Below, one piece after another: positions 22,531 through 40,316 of a stretch of DNA of 46,487 nucleotides. Position numbers and translations under genes: made by a program. Under the pieces are notes generated by a model that saw only the letters and a list, made by a program, of their open reading frames with translations, was not told the DNA's origin and did not search any database. The number at the start of each line of letters is the position of its first letter. Position 1 is the stretch's first letter. The stretch covers positions 1 to 46,487 of the forward strand of contig CALIFY010000074.1 of NCBI GenBank assembly GCA_938021675.1, given 5' to 3'. The stretch comes from an uncultured Acidimicrobiales bacterium. Lineage in GTDB: Bacteria; Actinomycetota; Acidimicrobiia; Acidimicrobiales; SZUA-35.

Positions 22531-22626
22531 TGACAGAATCTGCACGAATTGCCAGAATCTGTTGCCAGGGAGCGGTGAAATTTGACGGAGTCTGATTGAC
22601 TTTCGGTCCGCTGCTGACTGAATCTG
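22531..22626. promoter_or_regulatory. Four copies of a TGACnGAnTCTG-like element, candidate DeoR operators
   Basis: TGACAGAATCTG (22531-22542), GCCAGAATCTG (22551-22561), TGACGGAGTCTG (22583-22594) and TGACTGAATCTG (22615-22626) all have the same orientation. Distances between copies are about 19, 33 and 32 bp, near whole helical turns. They occupy the region between the divergent beta-helix and DeoR genes. DeoR-family regulators usually bind several direct repeats near their own promoter. Assignment to this DeoR protein is inference. Confidence 0.6.
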
Positions 22627-22655
22627 TAGTGTTTACTATCGATGGGAACCCCTAC

Positions 22656-23432
22656 GTGCTCAAGGAAGTTCGCCATTCTCGGATCCGGGATCTCCTCGAC
22701 GAACGAGGGGAACTACGAATCAGCGAGATCAACGAGGCGCTCGATGTGAGCGAGGCCACCGTTCGCCGGGATCTCGACGAGATGGCCTCTCGCGGGTGGA
22801 TCCGACGAACTCACGGTGGCGCTCTTCGGGCTGAGCGTGCCGATCCCGAGCCGCCGCTTCGTTTGCGTCAAGCGGCAAACTCGGGTGAAAAGGAACTGAT
22901 CGCCAAAGCCGCAGCCACCTTTGCCAGGAGCGGCGAAACCATCTTCCTCGGCAGCGGTACGACCGTGGCCGCCATGGTGCCGCATCTTGCGAGTCTTGAG
23001 GATCTTCGTGTCGTGACAAATTCGCTCCCGGTGATCACACAACTGGCCGGCCGTGAAGACGTCGAACTCATCGTGGTCGGTGGGTTGTTCCGTCACTCGG
23101 AGGGATCGATGGTTAGCTCCTTGGCTGACGAGGCATTGCGGCAGTACCGAGCAGACCACGTGTTTATGGGAATTCGCGGAATCAACGCCATCGATGGTCT
23201 AACCAACAGTTCGATCAGCGAAGCGGCGACCGATCGGATGATCCTGCAGGTCGCAAGCCATCGAGTCATTCTCGCTGACCATACGAAGTTTGGTCAGGTG
23301 AGCACCTTTGTGGTTGGCCCCGTCGATCAAGCCTCAGTGATCGTTACCTCATCGATGACCGACGAGGTTCAGCTCAACGAACTCGCTGCGTGTGCGGTCG
23401 ACATCGTGAAGGCGGAAGAGGTCATCGCGTGA
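22656..23432 (+). CDS. DeoR-family transcriptional regulator of the sugar operon
   Basis: Start GTG at 22656 (encoding VLKEVRHSRIRDLLDERGEL) is preferred because DeoR proteins begin directly at the helix before the HTH, and because it leaves the upstream repeats outside the gene. TTG at 22596 and GTG at 22629 are alternatives. The N-terminal HTH reads RISEINEALDVSEATVRRDLDEM, followed by the family sequence RTHGGAL. The C-terminal sugar-phosphate-sensing DeoRC domain has IFLGSGTTVAAMVPHL, VVTNSLPV, GGLFRHSEGSMV, HVFMGIRGI and ILADHTKFG. Such proteins repress catabolic operons until a phosphorylated intermediate binds; tagatose-6-phosphate or the bisphosphate would fit here. Overlaps the next gene by 4 nt. 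Confidence 0.88.
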   Translation: MLKEVRHSRIRDLLDERGELRISEINEALDVSEATVRRDLDEMASRGWIRRTHGGALRAERADPEPPLRLRQAANSGEKELIAKAAATFARSGETIFLGSGTTVAAMVPHLASLEDLRVVTNSLPVITQLAGREDVELIVVGGLFRHSEGSMVSSLADEALRQYRADHVFMGIRGINAIDGLTNSSISEAATDRMILQVASHRVILADHTKFGQVSTFVVGPVDQASVIVTSSMTDEVQLNELAACAVDIVKAEEVIA

Positions 23433-24478
23433 CAACCCTCGGAACCGCAACGGCCGACGACATTAACCATCAGGTCGATGCGTGGGTCTCGGTAAATCGA
23501 ATGTTGCGGGACCGAGCCGATGAGATCAGGCACGCCTGGAATGCGCTGGACATCGACAGCGTTCACTTCATCGGATCCGGATCCGTAAACTACCTTTCTC
23601 AGACGGCGGCACCGCTCCTGCAAACAGCTACTGGAATTTCCGCATCGAGTGACCCTGCCTCAGCGTTCCTCGTCCGTTCGGGTTTCCCAGTGGCAAATCC
23701 GGAGCGGACGTTGCTGGTTGCGATATCGCGGTCCGGTGAAACTACCGAGCTCGTCGAAGCGGTCTCATCGTTTCAACAACGTGGCGGTAATACGGTGTGG
23801 GGAATCACCACTCGATCGAACAGTTCATTAGCGGGGCGTTCCGATCTTGTCATCGCCGAGGACCTTGGCTTCGAGGGCAGCGTGGTGCAGACCCGCTCGT
23901 TTTCGTCGTTGCTTGCCATGATGCAAGGCGTCGTCGCCACGATCTCTGGCGATGCGCTTCCTCCTGACGGCCAGCTAGCGGCGTCTGGCGAATCGTGCCT
24001 GGCCAGTGCTGACCTCCTGTCGTCGGACCTCGAAGTACTTGGCACCTGTGAGCGAGTCATTTTTCTCGCCTCGCGACTCGGGTTTGGTCTCGCCCTCGAA
24101 GGGCAACTGCTGATGAACGAGATGGCATTGACCGACAGCGTCGCTCACCAGTTTCTCGATTTTCGGCACGGTCCGATCTCTATGGTCGATGAACACACTC
24201 TTGTGGTCGGTCTTCTCGATGCCGCTGTTACCGATCAAGAGGTTGCGTTGCTGAACGATGTCGCCGGGCTCGGCGCTTCGGTAGTCACCCTCAGCATGGG
24301 CCCCGATGGCCCATCGGGGCAGCCATCGCTTCAGGTCGACCCCCATGGGCTCCGCCACTTGCCGCTGTTCATGCCGGCGATGCAGAAGATGGCTCACCGT
24401 CGGGCCCTTGCCCGGAACCTCGATCCCGACAACCCCCGCCACCTTTCGGCGGTTGTCATTCTCGACGGCCTTACTTGA
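23429..24478 (+). CDS. SIS-domain sugar-phosphate isomerase/deaminase (AgaS/GlmS-like)
   Basis: GTG start overlaps the DeoR stop. The 349-aa protein carries two SIS domains. The first has FIGSGSVNYLSQTAAPLL and the sugar-phosphate-binding loop VAISRSGETTELVEAV, with SVVQTRSFSSLLAMM. The second has RVIFLASRLGFGLALEGQLLMNEMAL and the catalytic-region sequence FLDFRHGPISMVDEHT. Proteins of this type isomerise or deaminate amino-sugar phosphates, for example galactosamine-6-phosphate to tagatose-6-phosphate plus ammonia in the AgaS group. With LacD and PfkB kinases in the same operon, tagatose-6-phosphate formation is a sensible prediction. Other possibilities are glucosamine-type deaminase or a deglycase. 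Confidence 0.8.
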   Translation: MTTLGTATADDINHQVDAWVSVNRMLRDRADEIRHAWNALDIDSVHFIGSGSVNYLSQTAAPLLQTATGISASSDPASAFLVRSGFPVANPERTLLVAISRSGETTELVEAVSSFQQRGGNTVWGITTRSNSSLAGRSDLVIAEDLGFEGSVVQTRSFSSLLAMMQGVVATISGDALPPDGQLAASGESCLASADLLSSDLEVLGTCERVIFLASRLGFGLALEGQLLMNEMALTDSVAHQFLDFRHGPISMVDEHTLVVGLLDAAVTDQEVALLNDVAGLGASVVTLSMGPDGPSGQPSLQVDPHGLRHLPLFMPAMQKMAHRRALARNLDPDNPRHLSAVVILDGLT

Positions 24479-24579
24479 CGACAGGCTCGATACCTTTACG
24501 TTTCCGAATGAAACAAATGTTCCAATGAACACAGTTCGGTTGAGATAGACGGATCTCGACCCCGAAGGGGAGAAATACA

Positions 24580-25911
24580 GTGCGGAAAACAAAACGATCG
24601 ATTCTGGGGGCGATGCTCCTTGCCTTTGCCCTCATCATGGCTGCGTGTACGAACGACGATGAATCGGGAGGAGAAGAACCCGAGACCGGGTCGGGTGAAT
24701 TGAGCGGAAACGTTCGAATCTGGACCCACCAGAATGATGCCTTCAATGACGGCCTGCAGGCGCTCGCCGACTCATTCGCGGCCGAGAATCCCGGTGTGAC
24801 GTTCGAATTTGAGACGTTCGACTATGACACCTATATCCAGACCCTCCAGACCTCGCTGCCAGCCGGAACCGAGGCAGACGTACTCCAGGTGTTCGGCAGC
24901 TGGACCTGTAGTTACGCCGACAACCTGGCCCCCGTACCCGAATCGGTTCTAACCACCGCCGATGCCGACAGCGCCTTTTTTGAGGCCGCCCTCGACGGCT
25001 ACAAGTGTGATGATCAGCTCTACGGCATGCCCCAGGAGTTCAACATCGAGTACGGGGCAACCCTGGTAAACACCGAGTTGGCCGAGGCCGCCGGTTTGGG
25101 CGATCTATCTGAAGGCTGGGACGACTGGGACGCCTTTACCGCAGATGCCCAGAAGCTGAGCGAAGGCGGTGAGGGTGATATGACCCGAGCCGGATTCATG
25201 TTCACGACCGCTGACGCGCTGCCGTACACCTTCTACTCGATGATCGTGCAACAGGGAGGGTCCTACCTCTCCGAAGACGGATCGGCCTTTACCATCAACA
25301 CCCCAGAGGGCAAGGCGGCGTTGGAGCAGATGACCTCGTTCGTCGAAGCCGGGCTGGTCGATCCGGTGCTCTACAACGATGAGGCCAACTGGGTCGGTGA
25401 CTGCTTCTTTGCCACCACGTGTGCCATGGGGGTCGTCGGGCCTTGGGTGGTCGCCGACTACAAAGACGACTTCCCCGAGGTCGCCGCCGCCGCCACCTAT
25501 GCGCCGTTGCCCAGCATGGGCGATGAGCCGAATTTCGTCGCAGACTCCGGTTGGGGGCTTACCGTCTCCAACCGCAGCGAGGTATCAGACGCCGCATGGG
25601 CCTTCGTGCAATACGCAGCCCTTGACGCCGAAAACGCGCTGGAGTGGAACGCCGCCGCCGGAACGCTTCCCGCGCTGCGGGCCAATGCTGAAGGTGACGC
25701 CGCCACGACCTTGGTCGAGGGCTTCCCGCAGTTCGGACCGTTCCTCGACATTCTCGGAAGCGGACAGTTCGTCGGTGAGCTACCCGACCGCGACCTGCTC
25801 TGGTACGACATTACCTACCCCCATATTCTCAGCGCTCTGCAGGGAAACGAGAGCATCGACGACGCCTTGGCTGCCATGGAGCGTGAAGCAAACGAGACCA
25901 TCGGCGGCTAG
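24580..25911 (+). CDS. Sugar ABC transporter substrate-binding lipoprotein (family 1)
   Basis: GTG start at 24580 preceded by GGGGAG. The 443-aa preprotein has a signal peptide with lipobox MAAC (Cys22) and an acidic linker. An extracellular solute-binding protein family 1 fold follows, with VRIWTHQNDAFNDGLQALADSF and a C-terminal domain where PWVVADYKDDFPEVAAAATYAPLP and SGWGLTVSNRSEVSDAAWAFVQY are the classic landmarks. Four Cys (VFGSWTCSYAD, GYKCDD, GDCFFATTCAM) could make two disulfides. It captures an oligosaccharide or glycoside for the two permeases downstream. A stem-loop follows at 25937-25977. No ATPase of the MalK/MsmX type is in the operon, so a shared ATPase elsewhere is expected. 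Confidence 0.9.
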   Translation: MRKTKRSILGAMLLAFALIMAACTNDDESGGEEPETGSGELSGNVRIWTHQNDAFNDGLQALADSFAAENPGVTFEFETFDYDTYIQTLQTSLPAGTEADVLQVFGSWTCSYADNLAPVPESVLTTADADSAFFEAALDGYKCDDQLYGMPQEFNIEYGATLVNTELAEAAGLGDLSEGWDDWDAFTADAQKLSEGGEGDMTRAGFMFTTADALPYTFYSMIVQQGGSYLSEDGSAFTINTPEGKAALEQMTSFVEAGLVDPVLYNDEANWVGDCFFATTCAMGVVGPWVVADYKDDFPEVAAAATYAPLPSMGDEPNFVADSGWGLTVSNRSEVSDAAWAFVQYAALDAENALEWNAAAGTLPALRANAEGDAATTLVEGFPQFGPFLDILGSGQFVGELPDRDLLWYDITYPHILSALQGNESIDDALAAMEREANETIGG

Positions 25912-25936
25912 CGCCTTGATTCGGGACACCGTTCCC

Positions 25937-25977
25937 GCGGGCCCGCTCCCACTTCCCTGCCGTCGGAGCGGGCCCGC
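25937..25977 (+). terminator. Strong intra-operon stem-loop (attenuator/processing hairpin)
   Basis: GCGGGCCCGCTCC (25937-25949) and GGAGCGGGCCCGC (25965-25977) form a perfect 13-bp stem with a 15-nt loop, 26 bp after the binding-protein stop and 30 bp before the permease start. There is no long T-run. Such hairpins often stabilise or partly terminate the binding-protein message, giving more binding protein than permease. Confidence 0.75.
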
Positions 25978-26007
25978 CTTGGTTTCGGCTGGCCGAAAGG
26001 CAACGAG

Positions 26008-27084
26008 ATGACAACACCGATCGTGGAGAACCAAGGCGACAAGGAAGCCGTTTCGTCCTCTGCTGGACTTCGGGGTTCGGATCGTGCATCTGGAGGCCAG
26101 CCGGACGGTGGGCGACGTCGCTGGTTCGGCGGACGGCAAGGGCGGGAACGGAAGTTCGTCTTTGGTGTGATGAGTCCAATGGTCTTCTACATGGCCATCT
26201 TCTCGGTCCTACCAATCATTTGGGCGATCGTGCTTGCATTCTTCGACTACAGCGCACGCCGAAATGGTGGCCCTGTTGTTGGGCTTGGTGGTGACAATCC
26301 GTTTGTCGGAGCCGACAATTTTGGTCAGATGCTGGACTTTTCGGAGGAGAGACCACTTGAAGTCCGACAATTCCATCTCAGCCTGAAGACGACCCTCATG
26401 TTCGCCTTTGTGGTCGTACCGGTGAACTTGGCCATCACGTTGCCTCTCGCTTCGTTCATCGAATCGATCCACCAGCGGATGCGTCCGGTATTTAGAAACC
26501 TGTTCTTCTTGCCCGTGCTCACGTCGGCCGTTGGCGTGGCCATTATGTGGGGCTTCATCTTCAATCCTCAGCAAGGCCTGCTGAACGGCTTGATCAGCCA
26601 GGTGCGTGGCCAAGACACGATTATCGCCTGGACGACCGATCCGAACCTTACCGTCCTGGGTATTCCGGTGGCGTTGCTGGCGGTGATCGTTGCCTACATT
26701 TGGCAAGACCTCGGCTACAACCTGATCATCTTTATCGCGGCGTTGCAGGCCGTGCCCCAGTCGATGAAGGAAGCGGCTGTCATCGATGGTGCCCGACCGT
26801 GGCAACTGTTTCGCTACGTCACCGTTCCGTTGTTGAAACCGACCATCTTGTTGGCGTCGATCCTCACGATGATCTCGGCATTCCAAGTGTTCGATCTGTT
26901 CCAGGTGATGACCGCAGGAGGTCCACAGGACCAGACTCGGGCCCTCTCACTCGATATCTATGAGAGTGCGTTCCGCTTTCAGCGGATGGGCTGGTCGGCC
27001 GCCATCTCCGTGGTGTTGTTCCTAATCGTATTCGGTCTCTCGTTAGTCCAATCGCGGTTGCTCTCATCGGACTGGGAGTACTGA
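26008..27084 (+). CDS. Sugar ABC transporter permease, MalF/UgpA type
   Basis: The 358-aa permease has an unusually long polar N-terminal tail (about 50 residues, Gly/Arg-rich: GRRRWFGGRQGRERKFVFGV) before six predicted membrane helices. The EAA loop that contacts the ATPase is EAAVIDGARPWQLFRYVTVPLLKP. The start ATG at 26008 has AAAGG upstream. It forms the channel with the MalG-type subunit, which begins 1 bp after its stop. Confidence 0.9.
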   Translation: MTTPIVENQGDKEAVSSSAGLRGSDRASGGQPDGGRRRWFGGRQGRERKFVFGVMSPMVFYMAIFSVLPIIWAIVLAFFDYSARRNGGPVVGLGGDNPFVGADNFGQMLDFSEERPLEVRQFHLSLKTTLMFAFVVVPVNLAITLPLASFIESIHQRMRPVFRNLFFLPVLTSAVGVAIMWGFIFNPQQGLLNGLISQVRGQDTIIAWTTDPNLTVLGIPVALLAVIVAYIWQDLGYNLIIFIAALQAVPQSMKEAAVIDGARPWQLFRYVTVPLLKPTILLASILTMISAFQVFDLFQVMTAGGPQDQTRALSLDIYESAFRFQRMGWSAAISVVLFLIVFGLSLVQSRLLSSDWEY

Positions 27085-27085
27085 G

Positions 27086-27988
27086 ATGGCGACAACGTCT
27101 ATCAAATCAGCGGGACCGGCTCGGTCTTCTGTGAAACACGTCGGTGGCGCCCGAAGTCGACTGCAATCAATGCTGAGCCTTCGGCCGGGTGCATACATTA
27201 TCCTGACCCTGTTTGCCGTAGTGTCTGCTGCGCCGTTCGTGTGGACGATTCTGGCGTCGTTCAAAACGGGGGCGGAAATCCGGCAGTTCCCGCCGACGTT
27301 CGTCCCCCAGGATCCGACACTCGACAATTACCGTACGATACTCAACGACCCGGACCTCGACTTGGTTCGTTTTTACCGAAACTCGGCCTTTGTTGCCATC
27401 GCAAACGTGATCGCCACACTGTTCACCAGCTCACTGTTGGGCTATATATTCGCCAAGCACAGCTTCAAAGGTCGTAAAGTATTCTTTTGGTACATCCTGG
27501 CCACCATGATGGTCCCGGCCCAGGTGACCATGATTCCCGGCTTCCTGATTCTGGTGAAGCTTGGGCTTCTGAACAACTTGTGGGGGCTCGTTCTCCCGGC
27601 ATTCATAGATGCCTTTGGAATCTTCCTGATGACGCAGTTCTGTAAGAGCATCCCCAACGACCTGATTGCAGCAGCGCGGCTCGACGGGGCAAGCGACTTC
27701 AGGATTTACCGATCGATAGTTCTTCCTCAGTTGAAGCCAGCGTTGGCAACATTAGGACTGCTCACGTTCATGACCCATTGGAACGCCTACTTGTGGCCAC
27801 TGATCGTCTTGACCGAGCAGAAAAACCGTACCCTTCCGATCATTCTCACCTGGTACTCAAACCAGAACTCCAATCAGCTTCATCTCACGATGGCGGCTTC
27901 GGTGTTGATCGTGATGCCGGTACTCGTGTTGTTCGCTCTGGCCCAGCGATGGATCGTGCGCGGTATCACCCTCACCGGTCTCAAATGA
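27086..27988 (+). CDS. Sugar ABC transporter permease, MalG/UgpE type
   Basis: The 300-aa permease has six predicted helices starting at YIILTLFAVVSAAPFVWTIL. It contains the MalG-family periplasmic stretch PPTFVPQDPTLDNYRTIL and the EAA loop IAAARLDGASDFRIYRSIVL followed by PQLKPA. The N-terminal 30 residues are polar. It pairs with the preceding permease for uptake of the glycoside bound by the operon's lipoprotein. Confidence 0.9.
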   Translation: MATTSIKSAGPARSSVKHVGGARSRLQSMLSLRPGAYIILTLFAVVSAAPFVWTILASFKTGAEIRQFPPTFVPQDPTLDNYRTILNDPDLDLVRFYRNSAFVAIANVIATLFTSSLLGYIFAKHSFKGRKVFFWYILATMMVPAQVTMIPGFLILVKLGLLNNLWGLVLPAFIDAFGIFLMTQFCKSIPNDLIAAARLDGASDFRIYRSIVLPQLKPALATLGLLTFMTHWNAYLWPLIVLTEQKNRTLPIILTWYSNQNSNQLHLTMAASVLIVMPVLVLFALAQRWIVRGITLTGLK

Positions 27989-28022
27989 GTAGCCGGTCTG
28001 ACCAATCGGAGAAGGTATCCCT

Positions 28023-29333
28023 ATGGTGAAGATGACCATCATTGGCGCTGGTAGTGCTGAATTTTCGGCCGAGCTGATGACCGACGTCCTTTCATCCCCA
28101 GGGCTTCCGACCGGCACGTTCGCGCTGGTTGACATCGATCCTGTTCGTCTCAAACTGGCCCACGACGTTGGGGAACAACTTATTGAGCGGACCGGTCGTG
28201 AATGGACTGTCGAGTCGAGCACGGACCGGACCGAGCTCCTCGCCGGTACGGATTACCTCATCAATACCATTGAGGTTGATGGCCTCGCCAACGTCCGGCA
28301 CGACTACGACATTCCCCTAACATACGGAGTCGATCAGTGCATCGGTGACACCATTGGGCCTGGTGGACTTTTTAAGGCATTGCGAACGTTGCCGGCGTGG
28401 ATTGACATACTGCGTGACGCCGATCGTCTCTGTCCAGAGGCGATGATATTCAACTACACGAATCCGATGTCGCTGACCGTGCTCACCGGAAGCCGCGTCA
28501 CGACGCAACCGATTTTTGGACTCTGTCACTCCATCACTCACACCGTTGAAGAACTTGCTGGAATGCTGGAGGTGCCAAGTTCTGAACTGACGTACCGTGC
28601 AGCCGGGGTGAATCATCTCTCATGGATCCTCGATCTTCGACACAAGGGCGTCGACGTCTACCCCAGACTTCGCGAGCTGAGCGAAGATCGAGATATCGCC
28701 GAAAAAGATCTGATCCGCTTCGAGACGATGAAACACCTTGGAGCGTTCCCCACCGAGACCAGTGGTCACTCATCGGAATACACGCAGTTCTTTCGTAAGC
28801 GGCCTGATCTGATCGATGAGTTTGCCCGGTCCGGCTATCGGGGTGAGTCTGGGTTCTACGCTAACAATTGGCCGACGTGGCGTTCGGAAGCCGACGATCG
28901 GCTTCGTCGGGCGTTGTCCGACGAAGAGCCGCTAGAAATCGAGCGGGGCCCCGAGTACGCCTCGTACATGATGGAAGCGATCGAGACCGACCAGCCGGTC
29001 GAGGTGTACGTCAACGTGCCCAATAGCGGTCTCGTCGACAATCTTCCCGTCGATGGAGTTGTCGAGGTTCAGGCCCGGGTTGATGGACACGGGATTCATC
29101 CCCAGGTTTTCGGTTCACTGCCTACCCACCTGGCCTCGCTCGATCGGGCTCACATGGCCTTTCACGATCTCGTAGCCACTTCGGTGATCGGCAAGGACAG
29201 GGAGGCCGCCGTGCACGCCCTCATGATCGATCCGCTCACATCGGCCGTGTGTTCGTTGGCGGAGATACGAGCGCTGTTCGATGAAATGGCGGAGGCGGAA
29301 CGTGACTACCTTCCTAGCTACCTCAACCCCTGA
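28023..29333 (+). CDS. melA: Glycoside hydrolase family 4, alpha-galactosidase-like (NAD- and metal-dependent)
   Basis: The 436-aa enzyme begins with an NAD-binding Rossmann fold, MTIIGAGSAEFSAELMTDVL, and has the GH4 order IGDTIGPGGLFKALRT, FNYTNPMSLTV, then GLCHSITHTVEEL with the metal-binding Cys and His. GVNHLSWI carries the second metal-site Asn/His. The CHS form of the motif is the one seen in alpha-galactosidases (MelA), whereas glucosidase members differ. GH4 enzymes hydrolyse through transient oxidation at C3 and tolerate unusual leaving groups. GGAGAAGG just upstream is a good ribosome site. Placed after a sugar ABC importer, it would act on the imported glycoside in the cytoplasm. 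Exact sugar (galactose, galactosamine or uronate) is not certain. Confidence 0.85.
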   Translation: MVKMTIIGAGSAEFSAELMTDVLSSPGLPTGTFALVDIDPVRLKLAHDVGEQLIERTGREWTVESSTDRTELLAGTDYLINTIEVDGLANVRHDYDIPLTYGVDQCIGDTIGPGGLFKALRTLPAWIDILRDADRLCPEAMIFNYTNPMSLTVLTGSRVTTQPIFGLCHSITHTVEELAGMLEVPSSELTYRAAGVNHLSWILDLRHKGVDVYPRLRELSEDRDIAEKDLIRFETMKHLGAFPTETSGHSSEYTQFFRKRPDLIDEFARSGYRGESGFYANNWPTWRSEADDRLRRALSDEEPLEIERGPEYASYMMEAIETDQPVEVYVNVPNSGLVDNLPVDGVVEVQARVDGHGIHPQVFGSLPTHLASLDRAHMAFHDLVATSVIGKDREAAVHALMIDPLTSAVCSLAEIRALFDEMAEAERDYLPSYLNP

Positions 29334-30939
29334 GGGAGCCGAACAACCTGGCGCCAATCCACGACGCCGAAAGAACTGGGATCCCGATGGTGCCGACCGG
29401 GCCGTGGCCACCATCTTGGGGCTGGCGTCGTTCGTCGCCTACTGGCGGACGTTGGCCCACGGGTTGCTGGTCGACGACAGCGCCGAGTTCCAAACGATGG
29501 CTCGGTTGTTTGGGCACACCCATCCAACCGGGTACGAGGTCTACACGTTCGCTGCCGGGTTGAGTGCGAGGATACCGATCGGTGAAGTAGCGACGAGGGT
29601 GACCGCCTGGTCGGCGGTGGCCGCCGCGCTTACCGTCGTCGGCGTTTTCGGCATCGTCCGTCAGCTCGGCGGAGGGCGGGTTGGGGCTACCGCGGGGGCG
29701 GTGTCGCTCGCACTTGGAACGACGTTCTGGTCGCAGGCCGTCATCGCCGAGGTCTACAGCACCGGTTTGTTGCTGGCGGTCATCATCATCGGCGCCACGC
29801 TCCGCTGGGATGGGTCCGGGGATCGGCGGTGGTTGGTCGTCGCTGGGCTGGCCGGCGGGCTGAGCCTCGGAGTGCACTTCACCAACGGCCTGTTTATCCC
29901 GGGGATCGGCGTGCTCCTCGTTCTCGGAGCCACGGACCGGTACGGGTCGATAGTGAGCATCGATGGGCTGAATCGTGTGATCAAGCCGGCGGTTTTTGGC
30001 GCCCTTTGTGGCGTCTTGCTGTCGCTGGCGGCGTTCGTGGTCGTCGACCTCGTCGACCCGCCAAGCCAATACTTCGACGCGGTGATCGGACCGTCGTCAT
30101 CGGCCTGGGATCTTCAACCGAACGAGATCGATGGCATCACGGAGCGAATCCGATTTGATTGGACGGCGCGCCAATTTCGGAATCAAATGTTCTCCGACCC
30201 CGGACGGTTGATGCCGCAACGCTGGCATGACGTACGGACTGAAATATCCGCGGAGTTCAGCATCGTGGCCCTCGTGGTTGCCGTCGTCGGGGCCGCAGCT
30301 GTTGTGGTCCGGTCCCGGCGGTGGGCGTTGTTCATTGGTCTTTCGCTCGTGGCTCAACTGTTCTACGCGTTCAACTATGAGATAGGCGAACTCGTCTACG
30401 TCTTCTACCTCCCGGCCTACCTTCTGCTGGCGACGTTGTTCGGAACCGGTATCGACACGGTGGGCAGGGCGGCGAGCCGAGCGGTTCCCGGCCCAGCCGC
30501 CTGGGCCATCTCAGCGGCGGTTGGCCTCGTAGCCGTCGCCCCGGTCGCGGCCTTGCACTCGGGCCACGTCGTGTCTGGTACGACACCCGATTTTGATTTC
30601 GACGGCTATCCATCGGAATCGGGGACCGAAGCAATCGTGGCGGCGACGATTGCTGACTTGCCGCAAGACGCGGTCGTGTTGACCGATTGGGGGTTGCTGT
30701 ACACCTATGTCTATGTCGCACATATCGAGCTTGAGCGATCAGATCTCGTCTTCCACGAGACCAAACCGGCCGACGACTCAGATGAGCTAGCCCAATCGTT
30801 GTTCGACTATGTCAAGACGACGTCGACCCAGCGACCGGTGTACATATCGGAATACGAAGACCAATTTCGGGCCGCTGGATTCGAGTTGTTCCCGGCTCGA
30901 ATAGGTCCAACTCGTATGTTCCGCATCGAAGAGGAGTGA
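29302..30939 (+). CDS. DUF2723-family polytopic membrane protein (protein O-mannosyltransferase-like)
   Basis: GTG at 29302 is chosen because GGAGG lies 6 nt upstream; ATG at 29281 is an alternative. Either start lies inside the GH4 gene. The roughly 545-aa protein has about ten hydrophobic segments and the DUF2723 landmark near the N-terminus, GLLVDDSAEFQTMARLFGHTHPTGYEVYTF, the acidic loop equivalent to the catalytic region of GT-C glycosyltransferases. A soluble C-terminal domain of about 120 residues includes AVVLTDWGLLYTYVYVAH. TMEM260-type relatives transfer mannose to proteins from a lipid donor. Its stop overlaps the aldolase start, so it is firmly in the operon, an unexpected place for such an enzyme. 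Confidence 0.8.
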   Translation: MTTFLATSTPEGAEQPGANPRRRKNWDPDGADRAVATILGLASFVAYWRTLAHGLLVDDSAEFQTMARLFGHTHPTGYEVYTFAAGLSARIPIGEVATRVTAWSAVAAALTVVGVFGIVRQLGGGRVGATAGAVSLALGTTFWSQAVIAEVYSTGLLLAVIIIGATLRWDGSGDRRWLVVAGLAGGLSLGVHFTNGLFIPGIGVLLVLGATDRYGSIVSIDGLNRVIKPAVFGALCGVLLSLAAFVVVDLVDPPSQYFDAVIGPSSSAWDLQPNEIDGITERIRFDWTARQFRNQMFSDPGRLMPQRWHDVRTEISAEFSIVALVVAVVGAAAVVVRSRRWALFIGLSLVAQLFYAFNYEIGELVYVFYLPAYLLLATLFGTGIDTVGRAASRAVPGPAAWAISAAVGLVAVAPVAALHSGHVVSGTTPDFDFDGYPSESGTEAIVAATIADLPQDAVVLTDWGLLYTYVYVAHIELERSDLVFHETKPADDSDELAQSLFDYVKTTSTQRPVYISEYEDQFRAAGFELFPARIGPTRMFRIEEE

Positions 30940-31931
30940 TTGTTTTGCTAGGTACCAGCACCGCCCGTTCGTTGTCGGTTGGGAAGCAACGCCGTCTGGC
31001 TCAGATCGCTGACGCCGCCGGCCGGTTCGCCCTCGTCGCCTGTGACCAACGAGGCAATCTTCGGCGTGCCCTCAACCCCGAATCCCCCGAATCGGTCAGC
31101 TACGACCAAATGGTGACCTTCAAGGGGCAGGTGATCAAAACGATCGGGCCGTTCGTCACCGGCGCACTCGTCGATCCTGAATTCGGCGCCGCTCAGGTGA
31201 TTCGGTCTGGCGAACTCCCAGGTTCGTGTGGGCTAATTGTGGCGGTAGAAGAAACCGGTTACGAAGCCGATGCTCACGATCGCCAGACCGCGCTCATCGA
31301 AGGATTCGACCCCCGAAAGGCCGCCCGCCTCGGTGCCAGCGCGGTGAAACTCCTGCTGTACTTTCATCCCGAGGCCGGTCGGGCCCGCCGACAACTCGAC
31401 GTGGTCGCCGCCGTGGCCGCCGGTTGTCGGGAAGTAGAGATGCCGCTGATCGTAGAGCCGCTCTCGTTCTCTATCGACGCCGGGGCGGCGTTGAGCCCGA
31501 ACGAACGGCGCCGGGTTGTCGTCGAAACGGCGCGAGTACTGTCCAGACTTGATATCGATATGTTGAAACTTGAGTTTCCCGTGGATGTCGTTGCCGAAAC
31601 CGACCGGGCGATCTGGCGCCATGCCTGCGAAGAAGTGACGGCCGCTAGTACCGTGCCGTGGCTGCTGTTGAGCGCCGGCGTCGGTTTCGAGCTATTCGCA
31701 GCACAGGCCAAGATCGCCTGTGAGGCCGGTGCCAGTGGTGTGCTTGCGGGGCGAGCGGTCTGGCGAGAGGCCACCGAAGTGGACGGGGTTGATCGGCTCG
31801 ATTGGCTCGAAACGATTGCCCGTGAACGGATGGTCACGTTACGGGCCATCGTGTCAGAATCCGGTCGTTCGATTCACGAGGTCTTCGCTAAACCTGAGCC
31901 GGTTGCCGAACGTTGGTACGAGGCGTACTGA
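30936..31931 (+). CDS. lacD: LacD-type class I aldolase (tagatose-1,6-bisphosphate aldolase-like)
   Basis: Starts at GTG 30936 overlapping the previous stop, or at TTG 30945, which has GAGGAG at ideal distance. The 331-aa protein opens with LSVGKQRRLAQIADAAGRFALVACDQRG, the conserved start of LacD, and has VAVEETGYE, SAVKLLLYFHPE and VEPLSF. MLKLEFPVDV carries the predicted Schiff-base Lys, and LSAGVGFELFAAQAKIACEAGASGVLAGRAVW forms the last barrel strands and phosphate site. LacD cleaves tagatose-1,6-bisphosphate into glyceraldehyde-3-phosphate and dihydroxyacetone phosphate. Sulfofructose-phosphate aldolase YihT is a relative, so that is the main alternative, but no other sulfoglycolysis gene is present. 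Confidence 0.82.
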   Translation: MIVLLGTSTARSLSVGKQRRLAQIADAAGRFALVACDQRGNLRRALNPESPESVSYDQMVTFKGQVIKTIGPFVTGALVDPEFGAAQVIRSGELPGSCGLIVAVEETGYEADAHDRQTALIEGFDPRKAARLGASAVKLLLYFHPEAGRARRQLDVVAAVAAGCREVEMPLIVEPLSFSIDAGAALSPNERRRVVVETARVLSRLDIDMLKLEFPVDVVAETDRAIWRHACEEVTAASTVPWLLLSAGVGFELFAAQAKIACEAGASGVLAGRAVWREATEVDGVDRLDWLETIARERMVTLRAIVSESGRSIHEVFAKPEPVAERWYEAY

Positions 31932-32869
31932 TGACGCAAGACCACGGCAACTATGACGTCTTGGTCGTCGGTGACGCCAACCCGGATCTGATCCTTTCCG
32001 GTGATGGCGCGAGCCCCCGGTTCGGCCAGGTCGAGACGTTGGTCGACAGCGCAGATCTTGTTCTCGGAGGTTCGGGCGCTATCGCCGCGGCGGGGTTGGC
32101 ACGCCTCGGTCTTCGGACCGCGTTGTTGGCCGCGGTTGGCGACGACTCGCTTGGACATTTGACGATCGATCAGCTTGAACGGACCGGCGTCGACACGTCG
32201 CACGTAGTCGTAGATCCAGGTTGCACGACCGGTGTCAGTGTGCATTTGGTAGCGGGGGACGATCGCGCCATCGTTACTCACCTCGGTGCTATCGCTGGCC
32301 TACGGCCGGAGCACATCGATGATCGGGTAGTGACCTCGGCTCGCCACGTTCACGTGGCCAGCGTGTTTTTGATCGATGGGATCCGTCACCGGTTGCCGAC
32401 GATGCTCGAACAAGCTCGTCGGATTGGAGCCAGCACGTCGATCGACACCAATTGGGATCCGGCTGAGCGATGGGACATCGCCGAGATTCTGGCGCACTGC
32501 GACATGGTGTTTCCCAACGAACAGGAGGCGGTAGCGTTGGGCGACTGCAGCGAGTTGGAGCAAGCGATGATGGCGTTGTCTCGCCGTCATTCGACGGTGG
32601 TTGTCAAGCGGGGCGATGCTGGCGCGGTGGTGGTCACACCGCAGGGGCGCCACTCGGTTGCCGCCCCGTCAGCGATCGCCGTCGACGCAATTGGAGCTGG
32701 TGACTCGTTCGATGCTGGCTATATCGCCGGAACGCTCTTTGGCCTTGAACCGCCGGCTGCCCTCGCGCTCGGGGTTGCCTGTGGATCGCTCTCGGTTCGA
32801 GCTGCCGGCGGCACCGAGGCCCAACCATCACGGGCCGAAGCGGAGTCGCTTGCGGCGACGTTGCGATAG
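31931..32869 (+). CDS. PfkB-family sugar kinase (ribokinase-like), first of two
   Basis: ATG at 31931 shares one base with the aldolase stop (TGATG). The 312-aa kinase has the N-terminal strand VLVVGDANPDLIL, the substrate-binding GGSGAIAAAGLARLGLRTALLAAVGDD, the central SIDTNWDP, FPNEQEA, and the C-terminal PfkB signature DAIGAGDSFDAGYIAG with the catalytic Asp. It resembles ribokinase/KDG-kinase-type members more than the 1-phosphofructokinase group. In a PTS-free pathway it could phosphorylate the sugar released by the GH4 enzyme, giving the substrate of the SIS protein. That role is inference. Confidence 0.85.
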   Translation: MTQDHGNYDVLVVGDANPDLILSGDGASPRFGQVETLVDSADLVLGGSGAIAAAGLARLGLRTALLAAVGDDSLGHLTIDQLERTGVDTSHVVVDPGCTTGVSVHLVAGDDRAIVTHLGAIAGLRPEHIDDRVVTSARHVHVASVFLIDGIRHRLPTMLEQARRIGASTSIDTNWDPAERWDIAEILAHCDMVFPNEQEAVALGDCSELEQAMMALSRRHSTVVVKRGDAGAVVVTPQGRHSVAAPSAIAVDAIGAGDSFDAGYIAGTLFGLEPPAALALGVACGSLSVRAAGGTEAQPSRAEAESLAATLR

Positions 32870-32878
32870 CGCCTGGCC

Positions 32879-33826
32879 ATGATTTGGTGCCTTGGACCTA
32901 GCCCTGCGCTCGACCGAACGCAGTACGTGTCCCATCTCACGATTGGTGAGGTGAATCGCTCGACCCGGGTGGTAGTCCAGGCCGGAGGAAAGGCGGCAAA
33001 CGTCGCTCGGGTGATTCACACCATTGGTGGATCGGCGACCTTGGTCGGACCGGTCGGTAGGGGTACCGGCGAGGAGGTTCGGACGAGGGCCGAGTCGGAG
33101 GGCATCATGTGTCGATGGTCGCCCAGTAGTTTGTCGACGAGGGTCTGTACCACGATCGTCGATTCCGAAGGGGTGGCGACCGATGTCAACGAGCCGTCGA
33201 TGATCGATGCCGCTGGGTGGGACCAGCTCGTCGAACTGGTCTCCCAGGGCTCGGTCGATGCGTCACACGTGCTGCTCTCGGGGGCGATGCCGGAATTGCC
33301 GGACGGGCGTCTCGTTTCGCAACTGGCCGATGCGGTTGATCCACGATGCGGACTGTGGGTAGATACCAGCGGGCCCGCGCTGCGTCAGCTCACCGCCGGA
33401 ACGAGGCCGGTCGACGTGGTAAAGGTCAATCTCGATGAGGCGTTGACCGCCGTGAGAATTGACTGCCGTGGACGTTCCCGCCTGGAACTTTCGGCTGTTG
33501 TTTCGTCGGAGTTGCAACGGCAGACGGGTGGAGTCGCCGTCGTCACGGTGGGGAGCCAGGGGGCGGTTCTGGCCGATCGCGACCGATGTTGGTATGGCAA
33601 GCTCCCCGTCGAAAACGTGATCAATCCGACGGGGAGCGGTGACAGTTTCTTGGCCGGACTGGCTGTGGCTGTCGTTGAGCGATCGGCATCATGGCCGGAA
33701 GCGCTCGCTTTGGCATTGGCCTGCGCGGCGTCGAACGTGGGGCATCTCGGGGCCGGTCAGATCGACGTGTCCACCTTGCCCAATCTCGTAGAGGCCGCGG
33801 TGGTCGAGGAGCTGACCGACCCCTGA
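32879..33826 (+). CDS. PfkB-family hexose-phosphate kinase (LacC/FruK-like), second of two
   Basis: The 315-aa product begins MIWCLGPSPALDRTQYV, matching the CLNPALDRT-type start of 1-phosphofructokinase and tagatose-6-phosphate kinase. It has QAGGKAANVARVIHTIGG, the substrate-binding signature of that group, VLLSGAMPE, VKVNLDEA, and PTGSGDSFLAGLAVA with the catalytic Asp. In this operon it most likely converts tagatose-6-phosphate to the 1,6-bisphosphate used by the LacD-type aldolase. It is the last gene of the operon; the stop lies 20 bp from the convergent arylsulfotransferase-like gene, with no terminator that I can see. Confidence 0.85.
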   Translation: MIWCLGPSPALDRTQYVSHLTIGEVNRSTRVVVQAGGKAANVARVIHTIGGSATLVGPVGRGTGEEVRTRAESEGIMCRWSPSSLSTRVCTTIVDSEGVATDVNEPSMIDAAGWDQLVELVSQGSVDASHVLLSGAMPELPDGRLVSQLADAVDPRCGLWVDTSGPALRQLTAGTRPVDVVKVNLDEALTAVRIDCRGRSRLELSAVVSSELQRQTGGVAVVTVGSQGAVLADRDRCWYGKLPVENVINPTGSGDSFLAGLAVAVVERSASWPEALALALACAASNVGHLGAGQIDVSTLPNLVEAAVVEELTDP

Positions 33827-33846: not shown

Positions 33847-36489
33847 TTACTGCGATGGGTTCTGGTCGCGTCTGTTTTGACCGTTCTGACCGTTTTGGCC
33901 GCGCCGCTCCCGACCGACTTGATTCTCCTCCGAGGGATCGGGCTCATCGGTTGGAGAGGTCGATGACGATTCGCGACCAGACTGTTCGCCTGTGGGGCCA
34001 AACTCGTCGCTCGGGGTGCCGGAGAAGCAAGCCATCACGTACGGGTATTCACCGGTGATGTAGTAGCCATACTGGCCATCGACGACCATGCCGTTGCACT
34101 CGTCGAGGTCGCCGGCGCCATCGGTGAACTCGTAGTCTCCCATGAACTGGCCGTTGTAGTCATCGGACTGCACGTTGCCGACGACGTGCGGGGTGGTGAA
34201 GCCGGCCACGTCTTGGCGAGGGCCTTCCTGCAGGACGTAGCTGCTTTCGGCGGCGCGGATGGTGCCGCCTTCGTCGGTAAAGCAGGGGCCGTAGACGGGG
34301 AATCCGTCTCGGGCGAATCCGATGACCGGTGACTCTGAGACGTCGTTGCATTCGATCTCATAGAGTGCTTCGGGAGTTGCGTGGTAGTGGTAGACCCCGG
34401 TGGCTTGTGAGTGGGCTGAGAACGCATCGAGTCGGAATCCGTTGAGCGGCGAGCCGATGTTGTAACGCCACGGATGATCGAGCGTGCTATTGCAGCCGAT
34501 CGACTCCTGGCCGAGCTCGCTTGGGCCTTCGTCGAAGCACGCGGCGGGGAACAATTCCCAGATGACGCCGTTGAGCATCACGGCGTGTCCGTTCGAGCCG
34601 AGCCCGGTCGGTTCAGCGTTGACCACCGGTTCGGTGGGAACTCGAAACGTGGCGTCGACTTCATCGGCATCGTTTGCCCCGCTGGCGTCTATCCCGATGT
34701 CATGGTTGGGTATTTGGTTTGAGATGAGTGTGCAATGGTCGTCGTCGGCGGTGATAGTGAGCTGGCCTTCGAACTCGGTTCCGTTGCTCACATCGCTAAT
34801 CATGGATGAATAGTTGCCGACGTACGCCGCGCAATCTGCATCGGTTGAGGTCAGGACGGCACCGGTGATGTCCACGCTGTCGCCTGGAGGACCGGACGTT
34901 TCAGGATCGGGATCTTCGGGGTCCCCGTCGTCGGGATCGCCGCCGTCAGAGTCCCCGCTGGCGTCTCCAGAATTGTTGACTACAACGTCGCTCCAGGCCA
35001 GGCGTTCCGATCGGTATATCGCCCCGTCAACCGTCGCTTCCCATATCGTGGCCCCGCTGCGGTCGACCTCGACGAGGTGGGCGGTGTCGGAACTTCCTCG
35101 TCCGCCTGCGGTCAAGAAGAGGTTGCCGTTTTCGAGTTCGTCGACGTCGCCCAGCGAGCTGGTGTACTTCGGGGCGATGTACTCGAATGTTTGCGCTGCC
35201 GTCTCCGACTCGCCATCGATGGCGTAGGTAACGATTCGACTGTTGTCCTCATCGCCGCCGGACTCGTTTCGGTTGTCGTAGGCGAGGAGCTCACCGTCGT
35301 CGGTCCAGGTAGCGGCGTGCTGACCGGTCGTCCAGGTTCCTTCGGTGAGTTCGAGGAAAGATGCGTCGAAGCCGGCATCGGTTCCGGTGTCTTCACCGGC
35401 GATCCATACGATCTCGCCGGTGGCGTGGTCGATGTTGACGATCCACCCTTGGGAGCGGAGCGACAACAGGATCTGGTCTGTTGATTGGTCGTAGTAAACG
35501 GCGTTGCCGTGGGTCCAATCGATACCGCCGGCCCGTGCTTCGTTCGTCGAGAGTGCTCCTGGAAAGCGCGTGGTGTCGAGGTGATCGAAGCTTGACCATT
35601 CCCACACCACGGAACCGGAGGCGTCGAGTTCGACAATCGTGTCGCCCAGAATCTCGCTGCCATCGATGGTTTGCAGGTCGCCGACAAGGGTGAGGACGCC
35701 TCCATTGTCCAGCGGGACGGCATCGTGCTTCCAGCGGCCGGCTCCGGAGAGATCATAGGATTGGAGCAACCGTCCGTCGAGGCTCATCCGGTCGACGCTG
35801 TCAGCGAAGAATGCCAAGATCTCACCGTTGCCGAGGTTGCGGATCACTGGAGAGCCATTGACCCGTTTTGTGGTCTCCAGGTACCACACGATGTGTCCGT
35901 CAGGATCGACTCCGACGTAGGCCGGCGCGGTGCTCTGCTCGTTTTGTTGGTTTGTACTGTTGGTGAGGCCGAAAAACGTAATGCCGCTCGCGGTCGACGG
36001 CTCATTGACCTCGACGGCCACCTCGGGAAGACCCTCAGGGAGTGGACCGGTCGTTAGCGACGTGACGGCTGAGAACTCGCCGCTCGAAGCTGTGAATTCG
36101 TACGGTGTATCGGCACGAAGCCCGACGACGGTGAAGTCGTGGTTTGTGCCGGGTGGGGAGGTCAGCTGGCGGGTTTCGACACCCGATGCGTCGATGTCTA
36201 GCGTGACCGGCGCACTCGTTTCAGCGGTCACCGAAACGTTGGCGATAAGCGAGTTGTCGGGGCTGACGACGCCAGAAATCTCCAGTTCGGCGCCAGCGCC
36301 GGCGTCAGCGGTCTGCGACGTCGATGCGGATTGCAATCCATCGTCACCCGAAGCTGATGAACAACTGGCGGCGGCGATGGTGGCGACAGCGAGGAGGAGC
36401 CGGGGAAGCAGAATGCGAGCCGACCGGGCCTTTGGATATCCGTCTTTCAGTCTAGAACCGCGACGCCGGCGCCGTTGCATCTTGTTCAT
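33847..36489 (-). CDS. Lipoprotein fusing an arylsulfotransferase-type beta-propeller to a C-terminal YHYH domain
   Basis: The 880-aa preprotein has an Arg-rich start, a signal peptide with lipobox IAAASC (Cys43), and a fibronectin-like strand region (about 66-150). A six-bladed propeller of arylsulfate sulfotransferase type (about 160-525) follows. Candidate active-site residues are H255 (RWKHDAVPLDNGG), H327 (DWTHGNAVYY), R345 (LLSLRSQGW) and H391 (TGQHAATW). The 18-residue H327-R345 spacing equals the His356-Arg374 spacing I recall for E. coli AssT. An Asp/Pro/Gly linker precedes a YHYH domain (about 640-830) with HPWRYNIGSPLNGF, YHYH at 700-703, FARDGFPVYGPCF and several Cys. The tail is a low-complexity Arg/Gln/Asn/Gly stretch. 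AssT enzymes move sulfate between phenolic acceptors outside the membrane; YHYH has no settled function. Confidence 0.8.
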   Translation of the reverse strand: MNKMQRRRRRGSRLKDGYPKARSARILLPRLLLAVATIAAASCSSASGDDGLQSASTSQTADAGAGAELEISGVVSPDNSLIANVSVTAETSAPVTLDIDASGVETRQLTSPPGTNHDFTVVGLRADTPYEFTASSGEFSAVTSLTTGPLPEGLPEVAVEVNEPSTASGITFFGLTNSTNQQNEQSTAPAYVGVDPDGHIVWYLETTKRVNGSPVIRNLGNGEILAFFADSVDRMSLDGRLLQSYDLSGAGRWKHDAVPLDNGGVLTLVGDLQTIDGSEILGDTIVELDASGSVVWEWSSFDHLDTTRFPGALSTNEARAGGIDWTHGNAVYYDQSTDQILLSLRSQGWIVNIDHATGEIVWIAGEDTGTDAGFDASFLELTEGTWTTGQHAATWTDDGELLAYDNRNESGGDEDNSRIVTYAIDGESETAAQTFEYIAPKYTSSLGDVDELENGNLFLTAGGRGSSDTAHLVEVDRSGATIWEATVDGAIYRSERLAWSDVVVNNSGDASGDSDGGDPDDGDPEDPDPETSGPPGDSVDITGAVLTSTDADCAAYVGNYSSMISDVSNGTEFEGQLTITADDDHCTLISNQIPNHDIGIDASGANDADEVDATFRVPTEPVVNAEPTGLGSNGHAVMLNGVIWELFPAACFDEGPSELGQESIGCNSTLDHPWRYNIGSPLNGFRLDAFSAHSQATGVYHYHATPEALYEIECNDVSESPVIGFARDGFPVYGPCFTDEGGTIRAAESSYVLQEGPRQDVAGFTTPHVVGNVQSDDYNGQFMGDYEFTDGAGDLDECNGMVVDGQYGYYITGEYPYVMACFSGTPSDEFGPTGEQSGRESSSTSPTDEPDPSEENQVGRERRGQNGQNGQNRRDQNPSQ

Positions 36490-38339: not shown

Positions 38340-39950
38340 CTACTTCAGGGCTTTGCTGAGACCGGCTGGTCCGACACTGCGGCTGCCCAGTTCGCTACTA
38401 ACCAGTTTCAGGCCGATGTCCGCCCCCTCGGTGAGGATGGCCATCATCTTGGTCGTATCTGGTTCGCCGTTTTCTATGTTGAGGTATTCCCGAACGACCT
38501 TGACGCTTTCTTCCTCCGAATCGGGTAACACTTGAGCGAGGTTCCACATCGCGCCGCCTATGACCGCGGCGACAACGGAGTCTCGATCGATCAGCGTCGA
38601 GGTAGGGATGCGATCGCCGATCTTGCGGTTGCGCGCCCATTTGGGGTTTAGGTACGACCGCGCCCGGTCCTTGAGGTCGAGCCCCGATGTCAGAAGCGTC
38701 ACGAGGTCTTCGGCGGTTCCGCCCCGGAGCCCCTTCATGCTGCCGATGACTGACTTTCCGATCGCCACCAGCGTCGCCAGTTCCGGGTCACCGCGGAACT
38801 CGATCTCTTGCACGAGCGGCCACGCCCAGCGGAGGCAGGGAAACCAGATCACGATGGTGCAGATCCGGATGCGGTCGGGCTCTAGCCATCCTGCGATGTT
38901 TTGGAAGTACTGCTGGATTTGTTCGTATTCGGGGGTTGGGTTGCCGAGCGTGTCGTAGAGGCCGTCGACGGGCACTCCGCCACCCAACGGGCCGGCCCCG
39001 ATGCCGTTGAGGTTGATGTTGACGTAGTGGTGCCACGTCGACTCCACAACGATTCTCCCTAGATCCGCCTGGTGTCCGTCGTACCCGCCGATGACGCCGA
39101 AGAGTTCGGGGGCGACCGGCGCTTTAGTCGACGTTCCCGGGCCACCGGACACGCCCCATGCCACTATCTCGGGGGCAATGCCGCCGGGAAACTCGTCGGG
39201 GTCAAGAACGGCCGGCTCGATCACTCGACCCTCGTGAGGATGATCGGGGAGGAACGTTACCGTGCCGTCAACGTCGTGACGGTCGAGTAACTCATGGGCG
39301 AACGTGGCGCCGCCGTCGGTGTACCACTTGGGGTAGATGTGTTGTGGCACGCTGTCGGACTGGAGATCAAAATCGGCTCCGGCTGCTGCGTTCGGCACGT
39401 TGGTATCGATCCTGGACGCGCTGTTGCTGCCGTCGGGTGCCCCGTCGGCGTCAAACCACAGACGCATGCTTTTGACCCGCTTCACGCCACCGCAAAGGAA
39501 CGCGCCGAGTGAGTTGTGGTCGCCGGTGGCGAACACGCCGCCGCCGTCATCCATGAATGCCTCAAGCTCGGCGAGATCGGCTCCACCCATTGCCGTCGCC
39601 GCCGTTGCACTGCCGATGCCGAAGATCCAGATTTCTTCGTAGTAGTGAATCGTCCGGTTGGCGCCATTGACGGTATGGGGGCCGGAGAAACTGAAGGATG
39701 TGACGTCGGCCGTCGGGTCGAACCCGGTGTGTGCCGTCGTCAACTCGACTTGATGGTTCGTTGTGGTGGCGGCAGCGATGATGTCGGCGGCTTCGCTAAG
39801 TCCGAAACCGGACGCTGGGTTGAACGACAGTCCGTCGGTCACCAGAAGGATCCGAGTCTTGCAATTCAGGTTAATTATCGTTTGTTGCCATAGGGGTGGA
39901 AAGAATGGGCGAAGTACTTCTCCTGTGGGGGTGGGGTCCACAATAGTCAT
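38340..39950 (-). CDS. 536-aa protein of unknown function with a glutamine-amidotransferase/ThuA-like look
   Basis: Start chosen at MTIVDPTPTGEVLRPFFPPL (39950), preceded by AAAGGA; the frame runs to 40151 but the extra 67 residues are Arg/Ser-rich and not protein-like. The first 330 residues show alternating strands and helices: TRILLVTDGLSFNP, EIWIFGIGSATA, LEAFMDDGGGVFATGDHNSLGAF, GVKRVKSMRLWFD, LFGVIGGYDGH and VVESTWHHYVNINLNG. This pattern recalls class I glutamine amidotransferase/ThuA folds, but no catalytic Cys motif is evident. The C-terminal third (about 370-536) is mostly helical. No signal peptide, so probably cytoplasmic. I cannot name a function. It is divergent from the aldehyde dehydrogenase operon. 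Confidence 0.7.
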   Translation of the reverse strand: MTIVDPTPTGEVLRPFFPPLWQQTIINLNCKTRILLVTDGLSFNPASGFGLSEAADIIAAATTTNHQVELTTAHTGFDPTADVTSFSFSGPHTVNGANRTIHYYEEIWIFGIGSATAATAMGGADLAELEAFMDDGGGVFATGDHNSLGAFLCGGVKRVKSMRLWFDADGAPDGSNSASRIDTNVPNAAAGADFDLQSDSVPQHIYPKWYTDGGATFAHELLDRHDVDGTVTFLPDHPHEGRVIEPAVLDPDEFPGGIAPEIVAWGVSGGPGTSTKAPVAPELFGVIGGYDGHQADLGRIVVESTWHHYVNINLNGIGAGPLGGGVPVDGLYDTLGNPTPEYEQIQQYFQNIAGWLEPDRIRICTIVIWFPCLRWAWPLVQEIEFRGDPELATLVAIGKSVIGSMKGLRGGTAEDLVTLLTSGLDLKDRARSYLNPKWARNRKIGDRIPTSTLIDRDSVVAAVIGGAMWNLAQVLPDSEEESVKVVREYLNIENGEPDTTKMMAILTEGADIGLKLVSSELGSRSVGPAGLSKALK

Positions 39951-40316
39951 GCTGGTCCTTTCGGGGCTGAGTTCTTCTCGGCGAGATACAAAGAGCCGTC
40001 GTTCGATACATTGATACAAATTTGTCCTGTCCGTCCGTGTCGTGAACGGTCTTCGTCCGACGAGGGTCATAGCAGGACTGCTAATCGAGCGGTGCGAAAT
40101 GGCACTGGAGCGTGCCCCCGAACTCGGCGATGGTTGACCTATGTCGACCAACGCTCCAGGTTCTCAACAACGCTGGTCGGTGCCGAGGGCCCGTCACCGG
40201 TATCGGTGTCTCGGGTGTAGCGGTCACGTCTCTGGTCGGATTGCCGACCGGATAGCCTGCAGGCCGCTGTTTTTGGGCCGGCCTTGGGTAGTCAGCACCA
40301 GAGACGGAAAAATCCA
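39951..40316. promoter_or_regulatory. 366-bp divergent promoter region with repeated GATACA elements
   Basis: No gene is supported here. GATACA occurs at 39985-39990, 40005-40010 and 40013-40018, in an AT-rich island 35-70 bp upstream of the minus-strand gene, together with a perfect palindrome ACAAATTTGT at 40016-40025. Read on the minus strand these are TGTATC boxes suitable for a promoter or operator. Nearer the dehydrogenase gene, GGTCGG-ATTG-CCGACC (40234-40249) is a short inverted repeat. The LysR-type regulator at 43625 is a possible binder, which is inference. Confidence 0.45.

Follow-up and report, generated by a model that had tools for sequence, protein, structure and literature searches.

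Does the joining of an arylsulfotransferase (AssT) propeller to a YHYH domain in a single chain mean that the two work on one substrate, or does it record an event peculiar to one genome? The question is raised by a gene on a contig of an uncultured Acidimicrobiales bacterium (assembly GCA_938021675.1, contig CALIFY010000074.1), all 46,487 nucleotides of which were analysed and are referred to here as the window. An earlier note on this DNA had described the product as one lipoprotein, with an AssT-like propeller connected through a Pro/Asp linker to a YHYH domain, and had suggested that the YHYH domain shares the propeller's substrate or supplies metal or redox chemistry to it. We find that the architecture brings together two known families in a joining not seen elsewhere in our searches, and so far confined to a single species. 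The account that we consider rather probable is that the protein is exported, probably anchored by lipid, and works as a PAPS-independent sulfotransferase of AssT/Cpz4 type, which has gained a resident YHYH envelope module acting separately from it.

The gene is a single reading frame with an ATG start, encoding 880 amino acids followed by a stop (Table 1). Both domains score above their curated Pfam cut-offs: PF05935 (AssT) at residues 180-490 with 218.6 bits (E 1.7e-64; cut-off 24.2), and PF14240 (YHYH) at residues 614-824 with 141.1 bits (E 5.5e-41; cut-off 25). A weak match of Arylsulfotran_N, under its own Pfam cut-off, covers the Ig-like stretch preceding the propeller, and the protein had no match among NCBIfam models; PADLOC gave no match either. 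With both Pfam domains in one 880-residue frame, the single-chain description holds, its lipoprotein element being probable. The leader has a hydrophobic stretch followed by AAASC43, in which position -3 is Ala, a departure from the textbook lipobox residue; Cys43 is the sole cysteine ahead of the YHYH half, and judging from these residues the protein is likely to be lipid-anchored through it. Promoter-like sites (1 against 1.1 expected) and terminator-like sites (5 against 2.8 expected) were given no weight.

Table 1. Positions in the window of the parts of the fusion gene and of the operon beside it.
Feature	Position	Strand	Basis
Whole AssT-YHYH fusion gene	33847..36489	-	Frame, translation, Pfam
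Leader, residues 1-43: basic n-region, hydrophobic stretch, AAASC43 (probable non-canonical lipobox)	36361..36489	-	Sequence; textbook lipobox rule
Predicted N-terminal beta-sandwich, ~residues 68-150, E. coli AssT-like	36040..36288	-	AF2 model against 3ets; weak Arylsulfotran_N match
AssT beta-propeller, ~residues 151-500	34990..36039	-	PF05935, AF2 model, Cpz4/EcAssT superposition
His255 (EcAssT His252)	35725..35727	-	Alignment, conservation
His327 (EcAssT His356)	35509..35511	-	Alignment, conservation
Arg345 (EcAssT Arg374)	35455..35457	-	Alignment, conservation
His391 (EcAssT His436, transiently sulfated there; available text of PMC13426309)	35317..35319	-	Alignment, conservation
Acidic Pro/Asp/Gly linker, ~residues 505-536	34882..34977	-	Sequence
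YHYH domain, ~residues 550-826	34012..34842	-	PF14240; single-domain YHYH relative L069, 57% identical over 292 aa
His693, His701, His703 (AHSQATGVYHYH), putative metal ligands	34381..34413	-	Conservation
Asp728, invariant	34306..34308	-	47/47 bacterial, 45/45 viral
Asp796, invariant in bacterial set	34102..34104	-	47/47 bacterial, 44/45 viral
Polar C-terminal tail, residues 827-880, probably disordered	33850..34011	-	Sequence
Putative galacto-sugar operon	22596-33826	+	Gene functions assigned by sequence

The catalytic residues proposed for the propeller can be judged against E. coli AssT (EcAssT), in which, according to the available text of PMC13426309, His436 becomes sulfated, the probable sulfuryl-holding residues being His252, His356, Asn358, Arg374 and Thr501. 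The earlier note had named His255, His327, Arg345 and His391 as candidates and had proposed alignment with the EcAssT active site and structure prediction as checks. All four residues are at the positions named and pair with His252, His356, Arg374 and His436, respectively, and Asn329 pairs in addition with Asn358. The AssT search returned 88 stretches, reduced to 64 at 80% identity, 56 of which entered the modelled alignment together with the query (n = 57); a profile of these 57 sequences matched the EcAssT chain with E 4.5e-51, the H436N mutant chain deviating at the expected column. In this alignment His255, Asn329 and His391 are kept in all 57 sequences, His327 in 56 and Arg345 in 50. A recount over all 64 stretches and the query (n = 65), which adds the eight non-redundant rows left out of the smaller alignment, gives 65 each for His255, Asn329 and His391, 63 for His327 and 54 for Arg345, the last being replaced in 11 of the 65. 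The column of EcAssT Thr501 is occupied by Leu446 in the fusion and mostly by Met, Leu, Val or Ile in its relatives; since hydrophobic residues prevail there, Thr501 is not a general feature of AssT enzymes and was not taken as a defining one.

Structure prediction of residues 45-506 gave a confident model (AF2; pLDDT 91.5, pTM 0.89) that superposes on both Cpz4 and EcAssT. The top match by VIA-align was Cpz4, the caprazamycin sulfotransferase of Streptomyces (PDB 9kf4, 9kf6), with Z 36.4, 329 aligned residues and an rmsd of 2.8 for 9kf6, followed by EcAssT (3ets), on which model residues 11-461 superpose with Z 30.6 and an rmsd of 3.3 over 427 aligned residues; beyond these two the score falls to Z 20.0 (TolB). 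In the Foldseek ranking the first nine rows were EcAssT chains, and rows 10 and 11 were Cpz4. Alignment and model superposition, rather than measured distances, argue that the four residues converge in the propeller; by these comparisons, the non-convergence that would have contradicted the earlier note was not encountered. The AssT half therefore displays what marks a member of this family: the PF05935 score, the catalytic His, the sulfuryl-holding His/His/Asn/Arg set, and a predicted fold of sandwich plus propeller.

The two closest solved structures differ from the fusion in separate ways. Cpz4, which belongs to the PAPS-independent AssT type (available text of PMC13426309) and serves antibiotic synthesis, has its His/Arg motifs aligned with those of the fusion, but the identity is 22% and the N-terminal sandwich is mostly unmatched, the alignment beginning at model residue 103 in 9kf6 and 82 in 9kf4. 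With EcAssT (3elq, 3ets, 3ett, 4p04-4p07) the N-terminal domain and the propeller are both aligned at Z ~30. Cys418 and Cys424 of EcAssT form a disulfide, and neither is matched in the fusion, whose AssT half has no cysteine after Cys43. The fusion also differs from EcAssT in Leu446 for Thr501, in a leader with a probable lipobox and in the additional YHYH domain.

The closest relatives of the YHYH half are single-domain proteins of its own order, to which it is 57% (L069), 49% (L068), 41% (L060) and 40% (L061) identical over 292-298 aa. Unlike the fusion, these four are shorter, with no AssT match in them or in the surrounding stretches of 12-16 kb, and two (L068 and L060) carry their own leaders. 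All eight cysteines of the YHYH half are present in L069 and L068; L060 and L061 carry six of them and lack precisely the pair 714/736, which suggests that Cys714 and Cys736 may form a disulfide. Among 47 non-identical bacterial YHYH sequences, the query included and matches not spanning the domain excluded, His693 is kept in 46 and His701 and His703 in all, as are the two Asp residues of Table 1. From viruses, 102 domain-spanning segments were reduced to 45 at 85% identity (42 and the query were modelled, and all 45 were counted), with His693 in 32, His701 in 37 and His703 in 33. The available text of PMC7824862 reports for YHYH a His triad with an Asp, not saying which, and predicts zinc binding as well as a possible role of the domain as a tail-associated metal-dependent hydrolase; the conserved His and Asp residues agree with that zinc-site prediction, and a metal site in the YHYH half is plausible. 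The metal element of the proposed metal or redox chemistry is accordingly credible on conservation, while none of our results bears on redox. In the available text of the openly licensed PMC papers on YHYH, no tested function is reported.

The PF14240 score, the YHYH motif and the three His/Asp set place this half in the YHYH family. A model of residues 535-835 had moderate confidence (pLDDT 74.2, pTM 0.77); its best Foldseek match among solved structures was E 0.73, none of 806 aligned chains had Z of at least 2, and a PDB sequence search with this half found no match. With a model pLDDT of 74, the lack of a solved-structure match does not show a new fold. Named YHYH proteins were among the top matches when a viral library was searched with the model, and the domain shares with the YHYH domains of cyanophage virions both a family by sequence and a predicted fold. 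Unlike that of the fusion, the cyanophage domain lies in long virion proteins, some of which are without the YHYH histidines; two viral domains (L091 and L093) have YVYR in their place and retain the Asp motifs.

Across everything searched, the fusion occurs in the genome of the window (G000) alone. No second example was found among 41 relatives, among 39 family genomes (E up to 1e-10), among 296 class genomes searched with both families, or among 396 phylum genomes searched with YHYH only, 17 of which have a YHYH match; these sets overlap, and the genome itself is counted in each. Apart from the query, the longest YHYH frame in the 396 phylum genomes is one of 663 aa (L081), without an AssT match. 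Plasmid records gave 31 with any match, none covering 80%. In the phylum of G704, where 103 of 329 genomes have YHYH, AssT was absent from 10 of the 11 listed YHYH loci with frames of at least 570 aa, the remaining one being that of G922. Four loci (L473-L476) have YHYH as the final part of long proteins, preceded by Cys-rich repeats, with a second YHYH match in a neighbouring frame. A search of openly licensed PMC papers (YHYH, DUF3500, arylsulfotransferase domain fusion) found none on an AssT-YHYH fusion.

The two halves differ in ancestry, the AssT half grouping with proteins of foreign type and the YHYH half with same-order single-domain proteins. In a tree of 57 AssT sequences the query joined L098, from a Desulfobacteraceae bin, and L099, from a Krumholzibacteriia bin, with support 99/95, and eleven actinobacterial sequences, most of which have titles naming Acidimicrobiia or one of its orders, formed a separate set (98/94). 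A control tree was made by dropping three long rows and adding eight AssT proteins from genomes of the same order or genus: support for the query with L098 and L099 rose to 100/99, and five of the eight added proteins joined the eleven to form a set of 16 (100/100). The AssT proteins of two genus mates (G008 and G010) lay in a third region of the tree, and the eighth added protein (L023) had a very long branch of unsure place. On this evidence the simplest account would be that the AssT gene was gained from outside and then fused with a YHYH protein already resident in the genome; the lineage that donated it is uncertain, because the branch of the query is long and its kin are metagenome bins that may be mislabelled. 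L098 and L099 are 40% (residues 32-504) and 39% (residues 31-499) identical to the fusion, but both stop just past the propeller, and their genomes (G699 and G700) have no YHYH match.

In L099 (5962-8784) the AssT stop is followed after ~21 bases by a separate lipoprotein-like gene with an Lcl_C domain, and one other searched locus (L171) has a protein similar to this neighbour. Legionella Lcl recognises sulphated glycosaminoglycans, according to the available text of PMC11162425.

Beside the fusion gene, on the opposite strand and convergent with it, a putative operon ends 20 bases from the fusion stop. It encodes a DeoR regulator, an SIS isomerase, an ABC sugar importer, a GH4 enzyme close to alpha-galactosidases, a TMEM260-like protein, a LacD-type aldolase and two PfkB kinases, and because of this gene content the name galacto-sugar operon, assigned by sequence, seems fair. 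An aldo/keto reductase gene lies on the strand of the fusion, 99 bases upstream. Eleven genus mates were searched, and orthologues of the reductase (63-65%) are present in the five stretches compared; in none of these, 8.5-18 kb long, was any other gene of the window found beside it, and the last PfkB kinase of the operon had no match above 35% in the genus. The convergent sugar-gene cluster is real, while the link that the earlier note had raised between sulfated compounds and glycan use is one of position only, with no conserved synteny in the five genus mates. Two further frames of the window may be mentioned: the TMEM260-like gene (29281-30939, + strand), of the protein O-mannosyltransferase type, lies among the sugar genes and overlaps the GH4 gene, and a frame of 603 aa (38340-40151, - strand) has no Pfam match at E 0.001.

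Could the two halves nevertheless serve one reaction path, with YHYH as a metal-dependent hydrolase producing or removing the sulfotransferase substrate? The presence of both in one chain, the three His and two Asp conserved in YHYH, and the hydrolase prediction in the available text of PMC7824862 speak for such a bifunctional enzyme, but the genomic record is against it. The fusion is in one genome only; the flanks of 79 AssT loci (the best 79 of 137 relatives; up to 6 kb on each side, less at contig ends) yielded no YHYH gene; and among the 296 class genomes AssT is present in 42 and YHYH in 46, with both in 6 against 6.5 expected (Fisher p = 1). The two families co-occur at chance level, so that a shared substrate is unsupported, and a general AssT-YHYH link by that route was rejected; the earlier proposal that YHYH works on the substrate of AssT finds no support in these counts. 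Seven YHYH genes are present in G000, six of them outside the fusion, yet the fusion is its only AssT. We regard the bifunctional enzyme as decidedly unlikely, and give still less credence, as a long shot, to a reading in which YHYH depends on a metal to capture or cleave sulfated surface glycans or aromatics and the joined AssT moves the sulfuryl group. In eight genomes from which AssT loci were taken, four have YHYH, in frames of 304-408 aa. The seven YHYH genes of the 4.4-Mb genome are on contigs C74, C70, C21, C1, C94, C65 and C25; the protein on C70 ends in a repeated helical tail motif of LGIT type, which is also found in relatives including L013, L017 and L060.

The same restriction to one genome could be taken to mean that the joining is recent or neutral, an in-frame accident of a single lineage that leaves the YHYH half, or both, with no joint role and that may soon be lost. 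The absence of the fusion from the other genomes searched in genus, family, class and phylum, and the locus without synteny in five genus mates, fit this, but neither the catalytic nor the putative metal residues nor any of the eight cysteines has been lost, and the frame runs unbroken through 880 aa; we think the accident unlikely, though it deserves to be kept in mind. Because only one genome carries the fusion, selection for it cannot be judged. A mis-assembly joining genes of different organisms would likewise account for a single occurrence: the genome is a draft in 99 contigs, the window being one whole contig, no second copy of the fusion was seen, and the AssT half has foreign-looking kin. 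Against this, the frame continues through a natural-looking linker, and a chance junction in frame seems improbable. GC3 is level over the joint (0.72 in one half, 0.73 in the other, both inside the span of further window genes compared), which argues against a chimeric contig, and the two flanks resemble each other in codon use (distance 0.064). An artefact therefore appears highly improbable.

We return to the account preferred above, a separately acting envelope module on a sulfotransferase. A sulfate-ester donor would sulfate His391 inside the propeller, His255, His327, Asn329 and Arg345 would hold the sulfuryl group, and a hydroxyl acceptor would then receive it from His391 in a ping-pong reaction. 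The gene itself would have arisen when an in-frame fusion brought an AssT gene of foreign type together with an envelope YHYH protein native to the host lineage and replaced the leader of the latter. The YHYH part, carried on a flexible acidic linker, would be Cys-rich, probably held by disulfides and equipped with a putative three-His/Asp metal site; most likely it would be not a part of the active site but a separate module placing the sulfotransferase near its surroundings. Leu446 for Thr501, the replacement of Arg345 in relatives, Ala at position -3 and the single genome were counted against this account.

The fusion suggests that a foreign-type AssT has been built into a resident envelope protein, and a chain in which neither domain is damaged provides one purifiable protein on which both can be assayed. 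Natural acceptors are unknown for most AssT enzymes, according to the available text of PMC13426309. If YHYH were tied to sulfate-ester chemistry, this would be the first defined reaction for a domain of bacteria, phages and diatoms. While known from one species the fusion is a lead and not a rule, of modest interest until a second case or an assay is at hand.

The neighbourhoods of YHYH genes were examined in 24 stretches, 21 of which contain 23 YHYH genes (none was called in L447, L448 and L457). Four neighbouring genes are common to two congeners (G204 and G245), and two other pairs of genomes have a single neighbour each in common; these neighbourhoods are insufficient to assign a role. 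In two genomes, G019 (L441, 4140-9330) and G024 (L443, 4757-10270), a row on one strand is common to both and comprises a response regulator, a histidine kinase, YHYH, DUF3500 and YceI (Pfam was run on L441 only); this row may be the best lead to the function of YHYH.
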